64,000 bases of DNA, taken from assembly GCA_021811625.1 (NCBI GenBank), contig JAJZNU010000003.1, positions 32,461 to 96,460 on the forward strand, given 5' to 3'. This document shows, one piece after another, positions 51,857-59,271 of the stretch. A program made the translations under genes and the position numbers. Under the pieces are notes generated by a model. It had not been told where the DNA came from and did no database searches. It worked only from the letters and a program-made list of their open reading frames with translations. This DNA is from a bacterium. Its GTDB lineage: Bacteria > Patescibacteriota > Saccharimonadia > Saccharimonadales > UBA4665. Each line of letters opens with the position of its first letter. The stretch's first letter is position 1.

Positions 51857-54800
51857 TTACCCTTCTTGTCCAACACTCTGTAACGCTTCGGCCAGTTCCG
51901 GTTCGACATCGTCAGTATCATCCGGTGAAACGTACCCGGTACCGACTGGAATTTTGCGGCCCAAGATGACGTTTTCCTTAAGTCCGAACAATTTGTCAAC
52001 TTTTCCGCTGGTAGCCGCGGCGATCAGGACTCTGGTGGTGTCCTGGAACGATGCCGCGCTTAAGAATGAATCGGTTGACAAGCTTGCCTTGGTGATACCA
52101 AGTAGCAATTGATTAAACTCCGCCGGTTTTTTACCCTTAGCGATCAGGGCTTCATTCGCCTCAACCGTGGCTAATTTGCTGACAATATCTCCGGTTACGA
52201 AGTCGCTATCACCGGGGTCCTCGATCTGGACGCGACTGAACATCTGTCTGACAATTATTTCCAAATGCTTGTCAGCAATGTTCTGCCCCTGGCCGGTAAA
52301 CATTTTGAGGATCTCAATCATTATGTAGCGCTGGGTAGCCTCAACGTCTTTGAGCCTTGTCAGATCGTGCAGATTAATTGAACCATTGGTTAGACGATCT
52401 CCGGCTTTAACTTTTTGACCATCGACTACGCTCAAGTGCTTGAAGCCCGGTATTTCGTATCTTACGATGCCGCCAACCTCTGGAGTGATGACCGCTTCGT
52501 CTTTGGTAAATTCGATCATTCCGACAGCCGGGGATACTAAGGGGCTTGATCCTTTATCCTTGGCGGCAATCACATCGCCTATATTTACTGTTACGTCGGA
52601 TTCTACTTTAGGCGTTCGTCCATCCAGCGCCAGTCTAATTTTCTTCTGCTTGTCAGGCGCGATTTGGACGACGTAATGATCGCCTTCTTCCCAGGCGCTG
52701 ACGGTTCCGTCGACATCGGCAAGATAGGCTTGGCCCTTAGGTGTTCGGACTTCAAAAAGCTCTTCGACACGGCTTAATCCCTCGGCGGTATCGTCGGCAA
52801 CTACGGCACCGGAACGGTGCTTGGAGTCTAGGGACAGCTGCGTGCCCGGTTCGCCGATACTCTGAGCGGCAATGACTCCTACGGGATGATGCGCAGCAAC
52901 CAGTTCGCCGGTGGCCGGATCTAGACCGTAAGCTTTCCTGGGCACGCCCTTAACGGAATTGACACTCAGAACACTCATGATACGGACGCCGTCAAGTTTT
53001 GGATTATCCTCAATTTTCTTAGCTATCTCAGCGGTGATTAACTCTCCAGCCGATAAGTAGGGTTTGATATCGGTAGCTGCAAAACGTCCTACCAACCTTG
53101 ACCCATAACTGACGCCGATTTCCTCGGCATCGGCACGATACATCGCAAAACCTTCATCGGGAGCCTCGTCATCGATAGTGAAGACGTCTTGAGCGACATC
53201 CACCAAGCGGCGGGTCAGATACCCGGCATCGGCGGTTTTAAGTGCAATGTCGATGACGGCTTTTCGGGCTCCGCGGGTAGCCGTGAAGTATTCCAACTGC
53301 GTTAGACCGGCGGTATAGCTGGACTTGACCGGTAACTCGATCGGCTGACCGGAAGTATCGGAGAAGACACCAAGCATACCGACACACATTTTCATTTGCG
53401 AGATATTGCCTCGGGCGCCGGAGGTCATGGCAATAGCCGTCGATGAGTTCTGACCGGCCATCTGAGTCTTCAGAAGTTCCTGAACCTGGTTTTCAACCTT
53501 TGTCCAGTTGTCGACGGTTAAGCGGTAGCGCTCCTCTTCGGTAATGAAGCCTTGTTCGAATTGTTCGCTGATAGCGTCCGTCTTAGTCTCGCCTTCGCTG
53601 ATCGCTTTATCCGCACCGACCACTACGCCGAAGTCGCCCATACCCATGGATAAACCGGAGATGGTGGCATAGGCAAACCCTAGATCTTTGAGTTCGTCAG
53701 CGATTCTAGCGGTCTCGAGCTGTCCATATTTGTTGTATACCAGCGTCATGACTTCTTGTAGACGCTTCTTGGTCATCGTCTCGTCCTGGTAAGGAAAATC
53801 TTCCGGAAATATTTCGTTGAAAAGGATGCGTCCCAAAGTAGTGGTAATGGCCTTGCCACGGAATGTCAGTGTGACGTAATTCTGCAAGGTCAACACTCCC
53901 TCGTCACGGGCCATTAAAGCCTCGTTTATGTCGGTAAAGACCATCGGGGTAGTGTCTTGGTTCGGCGGTATGTAGGTCAGATAGTAGCAGCCAAGTACGA
54001 TGTCTTGCTCGATATGGAGAATCGGCGAACCGTCGGCTGGCTTCAATAGGTTGCGGTTGGCCGCCATAATGTCTCTGGCTTCGTTCTGAGCGTCATCAGA
54101 CAACGGGAGATGAACCGCCATTTGGTCACCGTCAAAGTCGGCATTAAACCCTTTACAGACCAGAGGGTGGAGCTGGATAGCCCGTCCTTCTATCAATACC
54201 GGCTGGAAGGCCTGGATACTGAGACGATGGAGACTCGGGGCCCGGTTCAAAAGAACGTACTTCCCGCGGATTACCTCGTCAAGGGCGTCCCAAACTTCGG
54301 TTTCGCCGGTTTCGATCATACGGGTAGCGCTCCGAATGTTATGAGCTTGCTCGCGGGCGATTAGCTCACCGATTACAAACGGTTTAAACAACTCCAAGGC
54401 CATCATCTTAGGCAGACCGCACTGATTGATCTTAAGTTCCGGTCCGGCAACAATTACCGAGCGGCCGGAATAATCTACCCGTTTACCGAGCAGGTTCTGG
54501 CGGAATCGTCCTTGTTTGCCCTTAAGCATGTCGCTCAAAGACTTTAGCTTTCGTCTTTGGCCGGTAGCGGCGACGGCTCTTCCGCCGCGGGCATTATTGT
54601 TGTCGATCAAGGCATCAACTGCTTCCTGTAGCATACGCTGCTCGTTGCGACGAATGACTTCCGGAGCGTTAAGGTCGATAAGTTTCTTGAGTCGATTATT
54701 GCGGTTGATCACTCGACGGTATAGATCATTTAAGTCAGAGGTAGCAAAGCGGCCACCGGTTAGTTGGACCATCGGTCGCAGATCCGGAGGAATTACCGGC

Positions 54801-55693
54801 AAGACGCTCAAGCACATCGAAGTGGGCTTGATGTTGGCTCGATCGATCCCTTCAAGCAGTCGCAGCCGCTTCATGATCTTCTTGCGGCGCTGGCCTTTAG
54901 TTTCCTCAGCCTCTTTGGTAAGTTCGGCAATGAGATCAGAGAGGTTGATGTCTTCCAGTAACTCTTTGATAGCTGCACCGCCCATACCGACGCTGATGAG
55001 GGCTTTGAACTCATCGGGGAGCGCCCGGTAATCGTTTTCGCTGATGAGGTGGTACTTTTCGAGACCGATCAATTGTTCACGAACAGTCTCGTGGGCCGCC
55101 CCGAGTTCCTCGAGTTCTTTGGTTTGGGCTTCGGCCAGGGCTCTGACATTAGCTCCCTCGGCTTTGGCCTCTTCTTCATAGCGAGACTTGATAGCGGCTT
55201 CAGCAGCTGAAAATTCGGCGTCTTTATCTGCCAGTATCTCGTCGCGTCGGACAGTATCAGCTCGCTTGATAATATAGCTGGCAAAGTAGACCACCCGTTC
55301 TAAGTTCTTGACGGTCATGCCTAGAATCAGACCAACGGCCGATGGAGTGCCGCGAAGGAACCAGATGTGGGCTACCGGTACGGCCAAGTTGATATGGCCC
55401 ATTCGTTCGCGGCGCACAATGCTCCTGGTCACTACTTCGCCCTTTTTATCGACGGCGGCTTCCCGGCTGCGAACACCCTTGTACTTAGTGTCATGCGGGT
55501 TGATGTCTTTCACCGGTCCAAAGATCCGCTCACAGAACAAGCCGTCGCGCTCGGGTTTCTGTGTCCGGTAGTTAATAGTCTCCGGCTTTAGAACCTCACC
55601 GTAACTCCATTCCATGATGTCTTCAGGGCTGGCGATGGCAAGCCTGACCGCGTCAAAGACCGCAATATCTGTTTGGTATGAATAGTTGCGCAT
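51857..55693 (-). CDS. rpoC: RNA polymerase beta' subunit, lacking canonical zinc-site cysteines
   Basis: WSYGEVLKPETINYRTQKPERDGLFCERIFGP; NADFDGDQMAVHLPLS; VGVIAAQSIGEPGTQLS. Confidence 0.98.
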   Translation of the reverse strand: MRNYSYQTDIAVFDAVRLAIASPEDIMEWSYGEVLKPETINYRTQKPERDGLFCERIFGPVKDINPHDTKYKGVRSREAAVDKKGEVVTRSIVRRERMGHINLAVPVAHIWFLRGTPSAVGLILGMTVKNLERVVYFASYIIKRADTVRRDEILADKDAEFSAAEAAIKSRYEEEAKAEGANVRALAEAQTKELEELGAAHETVREQLIGLEKYHLISENDYRALPDEFKALISVGMGGAAIKELLEDINLSDLIAELTKEAEETKGQRRKKIMKRLRLLEGIDRANIKPTSMCLSVLPVIPPDLRPMVQLTGGRFATSDLNDLYRRVINRNNRLKKLIDLNAPEVIRRNEQRMLQEAVDALIDNNNARGGRAVAATGQRRKLKSLSDMLKGKQGRFRQNLLGKRVDYSGRSVIVAGPELKINQCGLPKMMALELFKPFVIGELIAREQAHNIRSATRMIETGETEVWDALDEVIRGKYVLLNRAPSLHRLSIQAFQPVLIEGRAIQLHPLVCKGFNADFDGDQMAVHLPLSDDAQNEARDIMAANRNLLKPADGSPILHIEQDIVLGCYYLTYIPPNQDTTPMVFTDINEALMARDEGVLTLQNYVTLTFRGKAITTTLGRILFNEIFPEDFPYQDETMTKKRLQEVMTLVYNKYGQLETARIADELKDLGFAYATISGLSMGMGDFGVVVGADKAISEGETKTDAISEQFEQGFITEEERYRLTVDNWTKVENQVQELLKTQMAGQNSSTAIAMTSGARGNISQMKMCVGMLGVFSDTSGQPIELPVKSSYTAGLTQLEYFTATRGARKAVIDIALKTADAGYLTRRLVDVAQDVFTIDDEAPDEGFAMYRADAEEIGVSYGSRLVGRFAATDIKPYLSAGELITAEIAKKIEDNPKLDGVRIMSVLSVNSVKGVPRKAYGLDPATGELVAAHHPVGVIAAQSIGEPGTQLSLDSKHRSGAVVADDTAEGLSRVEELFEVRTPKGQAYLADVDGTVSAWEEGDHYVVQIAPDKQKKIRLALDGRTPKVESDVTVNIGDVIAAKDKGSSPLVSPAVGMIEFTKDEAVITPEVGGIVRYEIPGFKHLSVVDGQKVKAGDRLTNGSINLHDLTRLKDVEATQRYIMIEILKMFTGQGQNIADKHLEIIVRQMFSRVQIEDPGDSDFVTGDIVSKLATVEANEALIAKGKKPAEFNQLLLGITKASLSTDSFLSAASFQDTTRVLIAAATSGKVDKLFGLKENVILGRKIPVGTGYVSPDDTDDVEPELAEALQSVGQEG

Positions 55694-58600
55694 TAGCTTA
55701 CCTCCTCCTCTGTGGATTCAAGTGCGACAGCGTCGTCCGCCGTCTGATCATCGCTCCCATCATCGGACAGCGAACTGTCGTCAGTGATGGTCATAGTTGA
55801 AAACTCATCAACCGCAGCGTCTTCGGTGACGTCAATGTCCGAGACGACCGGTTCGGGAACGTCTACTTGTGGTTGATTTGAAGCTTCGCTCTTAATGTTT
55901 TCGGCTAAAATGTTTTCGGCATCGACAACCTTATCCGAGGTTATCATGTCGACCTTGAGTCCCAGTCCCTGCAGTTCTTTAACGAGAACGTTGAAGCTCT
56001 CCGGCACCTTTGGCCCGACAATCTCGGTTTTCTTAATTATGGCTTCGTAGGCTTTGGAGCGGCCATAGACATCGTCGGATTTCAAAGTCAACATTTCCTG
56101 CAGCGTACTGGCGGCACCGTAGGCCTCGAGGGCCCAGACTTCCATCTCGCCGAAGCGTTGGCCGCCATTTTGAGCCTTACCACCAAGCGGTTGTTGGGTA
56201 ACCATGGTGTACGGACCGGTCGATCGAGCGTGAATCTTATCGGCGATCATGTGATTGAGCTTGATGATGTACATCGAGCCCACGGTAGTCCGCTCGCTGA
56301 AAGCGTCACCGGTGCGACCGTCATATAGTTGCTGTTTGCCGTCTTCGGGCAGGCCTGACTTTTGGAGTAATTGTTGGATGGTCTCAATACCCACGCCATT
56401 AAATGCCGGGCTGGTAACGGTAAGACCGAGCGAACGCGCCGCCATCCCAAGATGTGTTTCAAATAACTGGCCGACGTTCATACGGGACGGTACGCCGAGC
56501 GGGTTTAATATGACATCGATCGGGGTACCATCCTCGGTAAACGGCATATCCTCTATCGGTAGAATGCGGGCAATAACACCCTTGTTACCGTGCCGGCCTC
56601 CGAGTTTGTCTCCAACCGCGATTTTTCGCATTTGGGCAACAAAGACCTGGATCTGCATCAAGACACCGGACTTAAGTTCGTGACCGTTTTCTTTGCTAAA
56701 TATCTTAACACCGACGACTTTACCGTGCTTGCCGTTGCTCATCCGCTGTGAAGTGTCTCTAACTTCCTTAGCTTTTTCGCCAAAAATCGCGCGCAGTAAT
56801 CGCTCTTCGCTGGATAGTTCCTGCTCGCCTTTAGGTGTGATTTTACCGACTAAGATGTCTCCGGGATGAACTTCGGCGCCGATTCTGACAATGCCGTCTT
56901 CATCCAAATGACGCAAGGCTTCTTCCGAAACGTTCGGGATGTCCCTGGTAACAATTTCCGGACCCAATTTCGTCTCCCGGACTTCGATCATGAAGTCAAC
57001 GATATTAATTGAAGTCAGGTCATCATCTTGGACTAAACGACGCGATATGATGATAGCGTCCTCAAAGTTGTATCCGGACCATGGCATGAAGGCCACCAGT
57101 AAATCTTTCCCGAGCGCCAATTCGCCTCCCTGAATACTCATACCTTCGATGAGAGGGTCGCCGGCCTTAACCTTGTCTCCGCTGGAAACTACGACGGTTT
57201 GGTTAATGCAAGTGCCTTCGTTGCTACGGATAAAGTGTTCAGGATGATAGCTAACAACGCCTTCGTTATACTTAACGACTACTTCGTCGGCGGTCGTCTT
57301 AATGACTTCACCACTGGCTTCGGCGACTATTAACTGTCCGGTGTTTTTGGCGGCGGCCGACTCCAGACCGGTGCCGACTACTGGTGCTGAAGGTTGTATC
57401 AGCGGTACAGCCTGCCGTTGTTGGTTAGAACCCATAAGGCTTCGATAAACATAGTCTTTTTCGATAAAGGGAATGAGTCCGGCGGACGAACCGATAATCT
57501 GATTACGGGCGGCGTCCATGTGGGTGACCTCGTTGGCATCGACTTGTCCGGATTGCAAGTATCGCCGTCCGCTGACACGGTCGCTTTTGAAGTAACCGTC
57601 TTCGTCCAGCTCTTCGGCGGCACTGGCTATAATAGCCGATTCTTCTGCCGATGCATCCAGATAGACGATTTCGTCGCTCACTTTGGCGCGGACTGGCCAG
57701 GTTACCTGAGTTTTGATCTTGGCTAACCTGGCAGCGTCGGCGGCCGTAATTTTCTTGCCGGCAGCAACGATTACTTTACCTTTTTCGTCTTCCAGATCAA
57801 CACTGGCAATATGTCCAGTAGCGTCGGCGGCCTTAACCGAGCTGACCACTTTTCGGTATGGAGTCTCGATGAAACCGTATTCGTTAATGCGCGCATAATT
57901 GGCCAGGTTTAATACCAGGCCGACGTTGGCGCCTTCGGGAGTTTCAACCACGCAAATACGGCCGTAGTGAGTGGCGTGAGCATCGCGAACTTCAAAGCCG
58001 GCTCTCTCGCGGCTTAAACCACCGGGACCCATCGAACTAAGCCTTCGTTTGTGGGCGAGTTCGGATAACGGATTAATCTGGTCCATAAACTGGCTGAGCT
58101 GAGAGCTGGCGAAGAACTCACGAACGGCAGCTACTACCGGGCGAGCGTTAATAAGTTGAGCCGGTGTAACCGTTTCTAGATCGCTCATACTCATGCGGTC
58201 TTTGGTGTTTCGCTCCATCCGGAGCAAACCGATTCTGAATTGGCGTTGGACTAATTCACCGACAAGCTTGACGCGGCGATTGGCCAGGCTGTCAATATCG
58301 TCGCCGGGATCCTGGGTCACATTAAGCCGGATAATTTCGGATATGATAGCCTTCAGATCATCAAGGCGCATAACGCGGTTCTCGATAGTATTGGGCACAT
58401 CCATATCGAGTCGCTTGTTTAACTTGTAACGGCCGACGCGACTAAAATCGAAGCGCTTGTAGTTGTAGAACATGTTTTCCAGCAAGCTCCGGGCATTATC
58501 GACAGTCGCCAGATCACCGGGGCGAAGTCGGCGGTAGACTTCAATAAGAGCTTCGTTCTGGCCGCGGGTAGGATCTTTTTCAAGTGTCGCCTCCAAATAG

Positions 58601-59271
58601 CTGATCTTACCCTGATCGACATGTTTAAAGGCCTCTCGCATCATCGGTTCATTCATACCGAGAGCTCGGAGCAGCGTAGTTACCGGCATCTTTCTTTTGC
58701 GGTCGATTTTGACAAACATTCCGCCGCTGGCAGACGTTTCAAACTCCAGCCAGGCACCGCGTCCGGGTATGACCTTAGCCCCATAAAGGTTAGTCGTCCC
58801 GTGTTGATCGGTGGTGAAGAAAACGCCGCTGGAGCGGATTAATTGGGAAACGACAACTCTTTCGGCGCCATTAATAACGAACGTCCCCCGCGCTGTCATC
58901 CACGGATAATCCCCGAGATAAATTTCTTGTTCCTTAACCTCGCCGGTTACCTTGTTGGTCAACTCCACGGTAGCTTTTAGAGGCGCTTCAAAGCTGATGT
59001 TGTTGTCGCGAGCCTCAGATTCGGTCATTTTAGGCTGATCGAAGTGATAATCCTTGAAGTTGAGGCGTAATTTAGCACCGGTATAGTCATCGATCGGACT
59101 GATTTCCGCCAAAAGTTCGCCCAGTCCCTCTTCAACAAACCACTGGAAAGACTTGTTTTGATGTCCAACCAGATCCGGAAGATCAATAACATCTCGTTGA
59201 TCGGTAAACGAGATTCTTTTGCCTTTTGCATTTTTGATTTTGTCGTCTAGTGATACGGTGCCTGATGCCAT
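55693..59271 (-). CDS. rpoB: RNA polymerase beta subunit with acidic C-terminal tail
   Basis: SSQLSQFMDQINPLSELAHKRRLSSMGPGGLSRERAGFEVRDAHATHYGRICVVETPEGANVGLV. Confidence 0.98.
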   Translation of the reverse strand: MASGTVSLDDKIKNAKGKRISFTDQRDVIDLPDLVGHQNKSFQWFVEEGLGELLAEISPIDDYTGAKLRLNFKDYHFDQPKMTESEARDNNISFEAPLKATVELTNKVTGEVKEQEIYLGDYPWMTARGTFVINGAERVVVSQLIRSSGVFFTTDQHGTTNLYGAKVIPGRGAWLEFETSASGGMFVKIDRKRKMPVTTLLRALGMNEPMMREAFKHVDQGKISYLEATLEKDPTRGQNEALIEVYRRLRPGDLATVDNARSLLENMFYNYKRFDFSRVGRYKLNKRLDMDVPNTIENRVMRLDDLKAIISEIIRLNVTQDPGDDIDSLANRRVKLVGELVQRQFRIGLLRMERNTKDRMSMSDLETVTPAQLINARPVVAAVREFFASSQLSQFMDQINPLSELAHKRRLSSMGPGGLSRERAGFEVRDAHATHYGRICVVETPEGANVGLVLNLANYARINEYGFIETPYRKVVSSVKAADATGHIASVDLEDEKGKVIVAAGKKITAADAARLAKIKTQVTWPVRAKVSDEIVYLDASAEESAIIASAAEELDEDGYFKSDRVSGRRYLQSGQVDANEVTHMDAARNQIIGSSAGLIPFIEKDYVYRSLMGSNQQRQAVPLIQPSAPVVGTGLESAAAKNTGQLIVAEASGEVIKTTADEVVVKYNEGVVSYHPEHFIRSNEGTCINQTVVVSSGDKVKAGDPLIEGMSIQGGELALGKDLLVAFMPWSGYNFEDAIIISRRLVQDDDLTSINIVDFMIEVRETKLGPEIVTRDIPNVSEEALRHLDEDGIVRIGAEVHPGDILVGKITPKGEQELSSEERLLRAIFGEKAKEVRDTSQRMSNGKHGKVVGVKIFSKENGHELKSGVLMQIQVFVAQMRKIAVGDKLGGRHGNKGVIARILPIEDMPFTEDGTPIDVILNPLGVPSRMNVGQLFETHLGMAARSLGLTVTSPAFNGVGIETIQQLLQKSGLPEDGKQQLYDGRTGDAFSERTTVGSMYIIKLNHMIADKIHARSTGPYTMVTQQPLGGKAQNGGQRFGEMEVWALEAYGAASTLQEMLTLKSDDVYGRSKAYEAIIKKTEIVGPKVPESFNVLVKELQGLGLKVDMITSDKVVDAENILAENIKSEASNQPQVDVPEPVVSDIDVTEDAAVDEFSTMTITDDSSLSDDGSDDQTADDAVALESTEEEVS

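Follow-up and report, generated by a model that had tools for sequence, protein, structure and literature searches.

The trigger loop of RNA polymerase, which folds over the incoming NTP as a helical hairpin and speeds up catalysis, is among the most conserved mobile elements in biology, and its residues have mainly been studied by artificial mutation. Within the canonical bacterial loop (TMRTFHI in Escherichia coli; M1238, R1239, F1241, and H1242 in Taq), the Arg933 equivalent touches the NTP triphosphate (PMC2874521) and, according to simulation, aids pyrophosphate exit (PMC3617016), while in the closed state F935 touches the incoming NTP (PMC10716388). The Taq substitutions R1239A (Arg933 equivalent) and F1241A (Phe935 equivalent) slow the enzyme 50-100x and 3-4x, respectively, and M1238L, the equivalent of M932L, leaves activity equal to that of the wild type (PMC2874521). 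RNA polymerase II (Pol II) has Asn at the Arg933 place (PMC2874521); Arg933 is therefore not universal. Among the residues surrounding the loop, E. coli G782A is ∼2x slower and more accurate, with A779V more accurate too (PMC5791816); a separate report describes a moderate fidelity defect for yeast G823A, the G782 equivalent (PMC3533926). I1134V lowers activity (PMC5127505). In the literature on the trigger loop in Saccharibacteria, Patescibacteria, or CPR, we found nothing on an altered motif. Here, we describe such a motif in the RpoC encoded by a Saccharimonadales contig, of which a stretch of 64,000 nucleotides (the window) was analyzed.

The trigger loop of the window RpoC

The minus-strand ORF at 51857-55693 adjoins rpoB and matches TIGR02386 with 1373.4 bits (cut-off, 963.5). 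It is the only rpoC match in the window's own genome, the assembly of which is 74% complete in 13 contigs. Its translation reads ...AAQSIGEPGTQLSLDSKHRSGAVVADDTAEGLSRVEELFE around the trigger loop, and the loop itself is IGEPGTQLSLDSKHRSGAVVADDTAEGLSRVEELFE. The following features are relevant to the comparison.

51857-55693, minus strand: rpoC, RNA polymerase beta' subunit, 1278 aa (ORF; TIGR02386; single copy)
52814-52834, minus strand: trigger-loop face that contacts the nucleotide, altered to SLDSKHR (window residues 954-960; E. coli TMRTFHI, 931-937)
54125-54139, minus strand: catalytic metal-binding Asp triad D460, D462, and D464, intact
55693-59271, minus strand: rpoB, beta subunit; NTP-contacting residues intact, without a discriminating change

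Alignment with RpoC of E. coli MG1655, whose numbering is used throughout for RpoC and RpoB, revealed the substitutions T931S, M932L, R933D, T934S, F935K, and I937R. SLDSKH occupies nt 52817-52834 and R960 nt 52814-52816. The His at position 936 is present (H959), whereas the canonical basic residue at 933 and Phe935 are absent, with D956 and K958 instead. The original prediction, that LTMRTFH is replaced by LSLDSKH at 52814-52837 with L, D, and K at M932, R933, and F935 and His936 kept, was borne out by the translation and the alignment. The flanking IGEPGTQL and the active site are also intact, as had been claimed: the NADFDGD loop, R425, N458, R731, and Q929 match those of E. coli. The Arg and Phe positions had further been called near-invariant. 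M932L is unremarkable: Leu is common at this position, and Taq M1238L is fully active. Changes missing from that earlier account are T931S, T934S, I937R, a longer loop (the altered type commonly has one additional residue), and linked substitutions in the bridge helix and the second arm of the trigger loop.

The window loop resembles the canonical one in its place, the IGEPGTQL flank, the catalytic His, Gln929, and the presumed helical-hairpin context, and differs from it at 931, 933, 934, 935, and 937 and at the linked positions I1134, T1135, P1139, G782, and T786. Like Pol II (Rpb1 L1081, N1082, H1085), it has Leu at 932 and no Arg933. Pol II retains Phe before His, so the combination of an acidic residue with Lys differs from the Pol II solution.

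Distribution of the motif and its coding sequences

Codes f1, f5, f7, f18, f30, f37, and f57 denote sampled families. SLDSKH or SLNSKH was found in 34 of the 35 readable genomes of the window's own family (32 and 2, respectively); a genome from the same genus carries SLNSKH. Counts for the 99 sampled genomes taken as Saccharimonadales were 40 SLDSKH, 2 SLNSKH, 2 KLDSKH, 4 TLDTKH, and 1 TLDTFH, the rest being 22 TLRTFH, 15 TLKTFH, 6 TLNTFH, and a few others. The suggestion that the change might be lineage-wide therefore stands for the clade, with SLDSKH/SLNSKH in 42 genomes of six families (f1, f5, f7, f30, f18, and f37), but fails for the order, in which many sister families have the canonical T-L-R/K-T-F-H. 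Canonical close relatives had been named as a sign of error; the nearest relatives instead carry the motif. Its six codons occur in 33 spellings across 40 genomes, with both TCN and AGY in use for Ser, while the protein remains constant, which indicates purifying selection on the altered motif. The substitution set is fixed in the clade, is under purifying selection, and is linked to changes in the second arm and the bridge helix.

A phylum-wide pattern search located Lys935 in 41 of 381 sampled Patescibacteria (42 matches, one of which, G520, was false); frequencies are given only from this search because Lys-type rows were deliberately enriched in the set used for the tree. Arg935 (TMRVRH) occurs in further Patescibacteria genomes, and residue 933 alongside a basic 935 is R, K, N, H, D, or G. 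The other Lys/Arg-935 loops of the phylum (TMRVKH, TMRVRH, TLRTKH, TLNTKH, TLHSKH, and TLDTKH) share the basic 935 with the window, often lose I1134, and change 934 and 786 in step; they differ in that many retain Arg933 and have other companion residues (V934-S786, F773V). Among 74 readable non-Patescibacteria, mostly Bacillota, Actinomycetota, and Chloroflexota, neither K/R at 935 nor a non-basic 933 was found. Lys935 was likewise missing from the five PDB sequence-search alignments listed.

Other departures from the canonical loop were recorded during this survey. The near-universal His936 itself is replaced in nine Patescibacteria RpoC (rows L253, L254, L255, L257, L261, L263, L264, L267, and L273), with the motifs TMRTFQ, TMRTVN, TMRTFK, TMDAKR, LKNKS, LKSKS, TMRTFW, VLRTFY, and LHGKR. 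Two non-Patescibacteria Bacilli MAGs (L076 and L097; TMRNFN and TMRTIN) have Asn at the trigger-loop His. Eight f1 genomes (L004, L012, L014, L015, L019, L115, L121, and L125) carry P926L, which turns IGEPGTQL into IGELGTQL. All three f57 sequences read (L259, L268, and L269) have QMTMQTFHKG, with Gln at the Arg933 place.

The history of the motif was traced on a FastTree phylogeny of RpoB plus RpoC (257 rows, trigger-loop columns left out), in which some long branches meet. Parsimony required 16 changes for a basic 935, 20 for a non-basic 933, and 9 for a non-His936. LDSKH changes five times, four of these forced by well-supported branches. The main SLDSKH clade (f1, f5, f7, and f30) is a single supported group of 36, with f18 and f37 placed apart. 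That the same multi-residue blocks occur at separate points of the tree suggests either an old single origin followed by reversions or transfer by recombination. One genome labelled f1 (G086; row L142) has a canonical trigger loop, bridge helix, and F-loop within the SLDSKH family. Its RpoC is a mosaic, canonical-like at 601-810 and 925-1145 and f1-like at 1320-1375, and this identity profile suggests recombination or reversion.

Positions linked to residue 935

Each conserved RpoB/RpoC column (776-783 columns) was scored against a basic 935 by phylogenetically independent pairs. The regions of RpoC involved are listed below.

52772-52789, minus strand: second arm of the trigger loop, with T969 (E. 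coli I1134), A970 (T1135), and S974 (P1139)
53192-53299, minus strand: bridge helix (E. coli 769-804), with A812 (G782) and I816 (T786)
53360-53395, minus strand: F-loop segment (E. coli 737-748), with the more weakly linked M767 (I737)

The best four of the 776-783 columns were RpoC I1134, T786, T1135, and G782, all of them in the second arm or the bridge helix (hypergeometric p=1.4e-5). I1134 was the best covarying column, with 8.3 independent pairs in agreement and none opposed; Ile1134 is present in 168/168 rows with a non-basic 935 versus 17% of those with a basic 935. Substitutions at 934 and 786 are coupled, with 9-10 independent pairs concordant and none discordant, the observed states being T934-T786 (174 rows), S934-I786 (43), V934-S786 (12), and S934-V786 (9). 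They thus behave like a contact pair, and a contact is predicted from this pattern; the AlphaFold fragment is of low confidence at the relevant helices. A basic 935 is also associated with a non-basic 933: 7.3 independent pairs favor the association and 0.2 contradict it (median p, 0.016). This link is not strict, as both residues are basic in 25 rows and neither is in 11, including LNTFH and LDTFH.

Within Saccharimonadales, the only positions that separate the two trigger-loop types without overlap are G782, T786, T931, T934, F935, I937, and I1134, and the next-best, close behind, are P1139, R933, I737, and T1135. The linked substitutions of the clade are I1134T/S/A/V, T1135A, P1139S/N/T, G782A/S, and T786I. 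The same linkage is seen in f18 and in f37 (the latter retains T1135), and it is reversed in the canonical G086. Covariation of D and K with secondary-channel or RpoB residues had been raised originally; the partners mostly lie elsewhere, in the bridge helix, the second arm and, weakly, the F-loop.

The window RpoB agrees with that of E. coli at R678, E813, D814, K1065, K1073, R1106, and H1237, and no RpoB column separates the two trigger-loop types within Saccharimonadales. Compensation by RpoB was consequently rejected. A weak A679S signal, beside R678, appears where 933 is non-basic. Loss of secondary-channel factors was also rejected, since the window's genome has GreA, as do families with either type of trigger loop. 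Two further features of the active-site surroundings are recorded here. The F-loop residue R744 (window 53372-53374, counted from A748) is Arg/Lys in most outgroup bacteria; Saccharibacteria with either trigger-loop type mostly have Leu, Ile, or Val there. In the rifampicin pocket of the window RpoB (55693-59271), most checked residues equal those of E. coli (Q513, D516, H526, S531, and P564).

Proposed mechanism and rival explanations

We consider it reasonably likely that this RpoC belongs to the sole polymerase of the cell, genuine and predicted to be functional, whose trigger-loop/bridge-helix core was remodelled as one unit, with Lys935 taking over the contact of Arg933. Repacking of the core is well supported, and the triphosphate-facing positive charge has probably moved from 933 to 935. 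In the folded state, residue 934 would pack on bridge-helix 786 and residue 935 on 1134/782; T786I and G782A would fill the space vacated by the Phe935 ring, and Lys935, next to the catalytic His936, would assume the triphosphate/pyrophosphate contact of Arg933. Were Lys935 to have this role, 933 would be free to become Asp, Asn, His, or Gly. The 933/935 association supports such a putative relocation of charge, even though the link is loose. By analogy with the E. coli single mutants G782A, A779V, and I1134V, we predict with low confidence an enzyme somewhat slower and more accurate than that of E. coli, not a crippled one; as the covariation suggests compensation, its overall speed may be close to normal. 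The mechanistically altered polymerase of the original prediction is plausible. More tentatively, Patescibacteria may have repeatedly evolved Lys935 as a triphosphate-positioner replacing Arg933, and perhaps even His936, enabled by compensatory repacking of the core. The LKSKS, LKNKS, MDAKR, and LHGKR rows are lineages where Lys935 perhaps stands in for His936.

On this reading of a rebuilt core, a catalytic element thought nearly fixed would have been rewired in nature in a large branch of the Saccharibacteria, which are tiny symbionts. R933D and F935K, which biochemists would expect to be damaging, evolved together with candidate compensating mutations. The clade therefore offers a natural epistasis experiment on triphosphate positioning, trigger-loop folding, and the balance of speed and accuracy, and it cautions against taking the trigger loop as invariant in inhibitor design or in inferring mechanism across bacteria.

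The strongest rival is relaxed constraint, because trigger loops are highly diverse in Patescibacteria even at His936, which is lost in nine sequenced rows. Small genomes of slow-growing, host-dependent cells would tolerate a degraded loop, through near-neutral changes that come at a cost in speed, without specific compensation or relocation of charge. We nevertheless regard this as unlikely. The motif does not vary among 40 genomes despite 33 codon spellings, and the active site is otherwise unchanged. The paired states of 934/786, which relaxed constraint does not predict, and the I1134 link reappear in lineages independent of one another. It may explain part of the pattern.

Recombination of rpoC segments within Saccharibacteria would make the linkage there a product of co-transfer, not of epistasis. 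Consistently, f18 and f37 hold the same block apart from the main clade, and G086 is a mosaic. However, f37 has I786 and S782 though the remainder of its bridge helix looks canonical, and the other solutions found elsewhere (V934-S786, S934-V786) are impossible from one transferred block. We therefore judge this quite improbable as the source of the linkage; co-transfer may have caused the spread within Saccharibacteria but not the differing solutions elsewhere. Very improbable, too, is that the changes were driven by escape from inhibitors of the streptolydigin (Stl) type, which lodge between the trigger loop and the bridge helix. The makers of such compounds are actinobacteria, whose relatives host some Saccharibacteria, the altered type often carries S793A, and in a modelled Stl-GreB complex R933, F935, and I1134 lie close to the drug (PMC10274647). 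Against this, M932, R933, and H936 are reportedly not involved in binding Stl (PMC3957892). The window retains D785 and the beta fork residues, and the pattern recurs in many Patescibacteria families. Finally, an assembly or sequencing error, for which only the incompleteness of the window's assembly would speak, has a negligible chance of having produced a motif shared by 40 genomes (including the single-contig G005) in 33 spellings within an intact ORF of a single-copy rpoC. A pseudogene or second copy was rejected on the intact ORF, the one rpoC, and the constancy of the motif in relatives.
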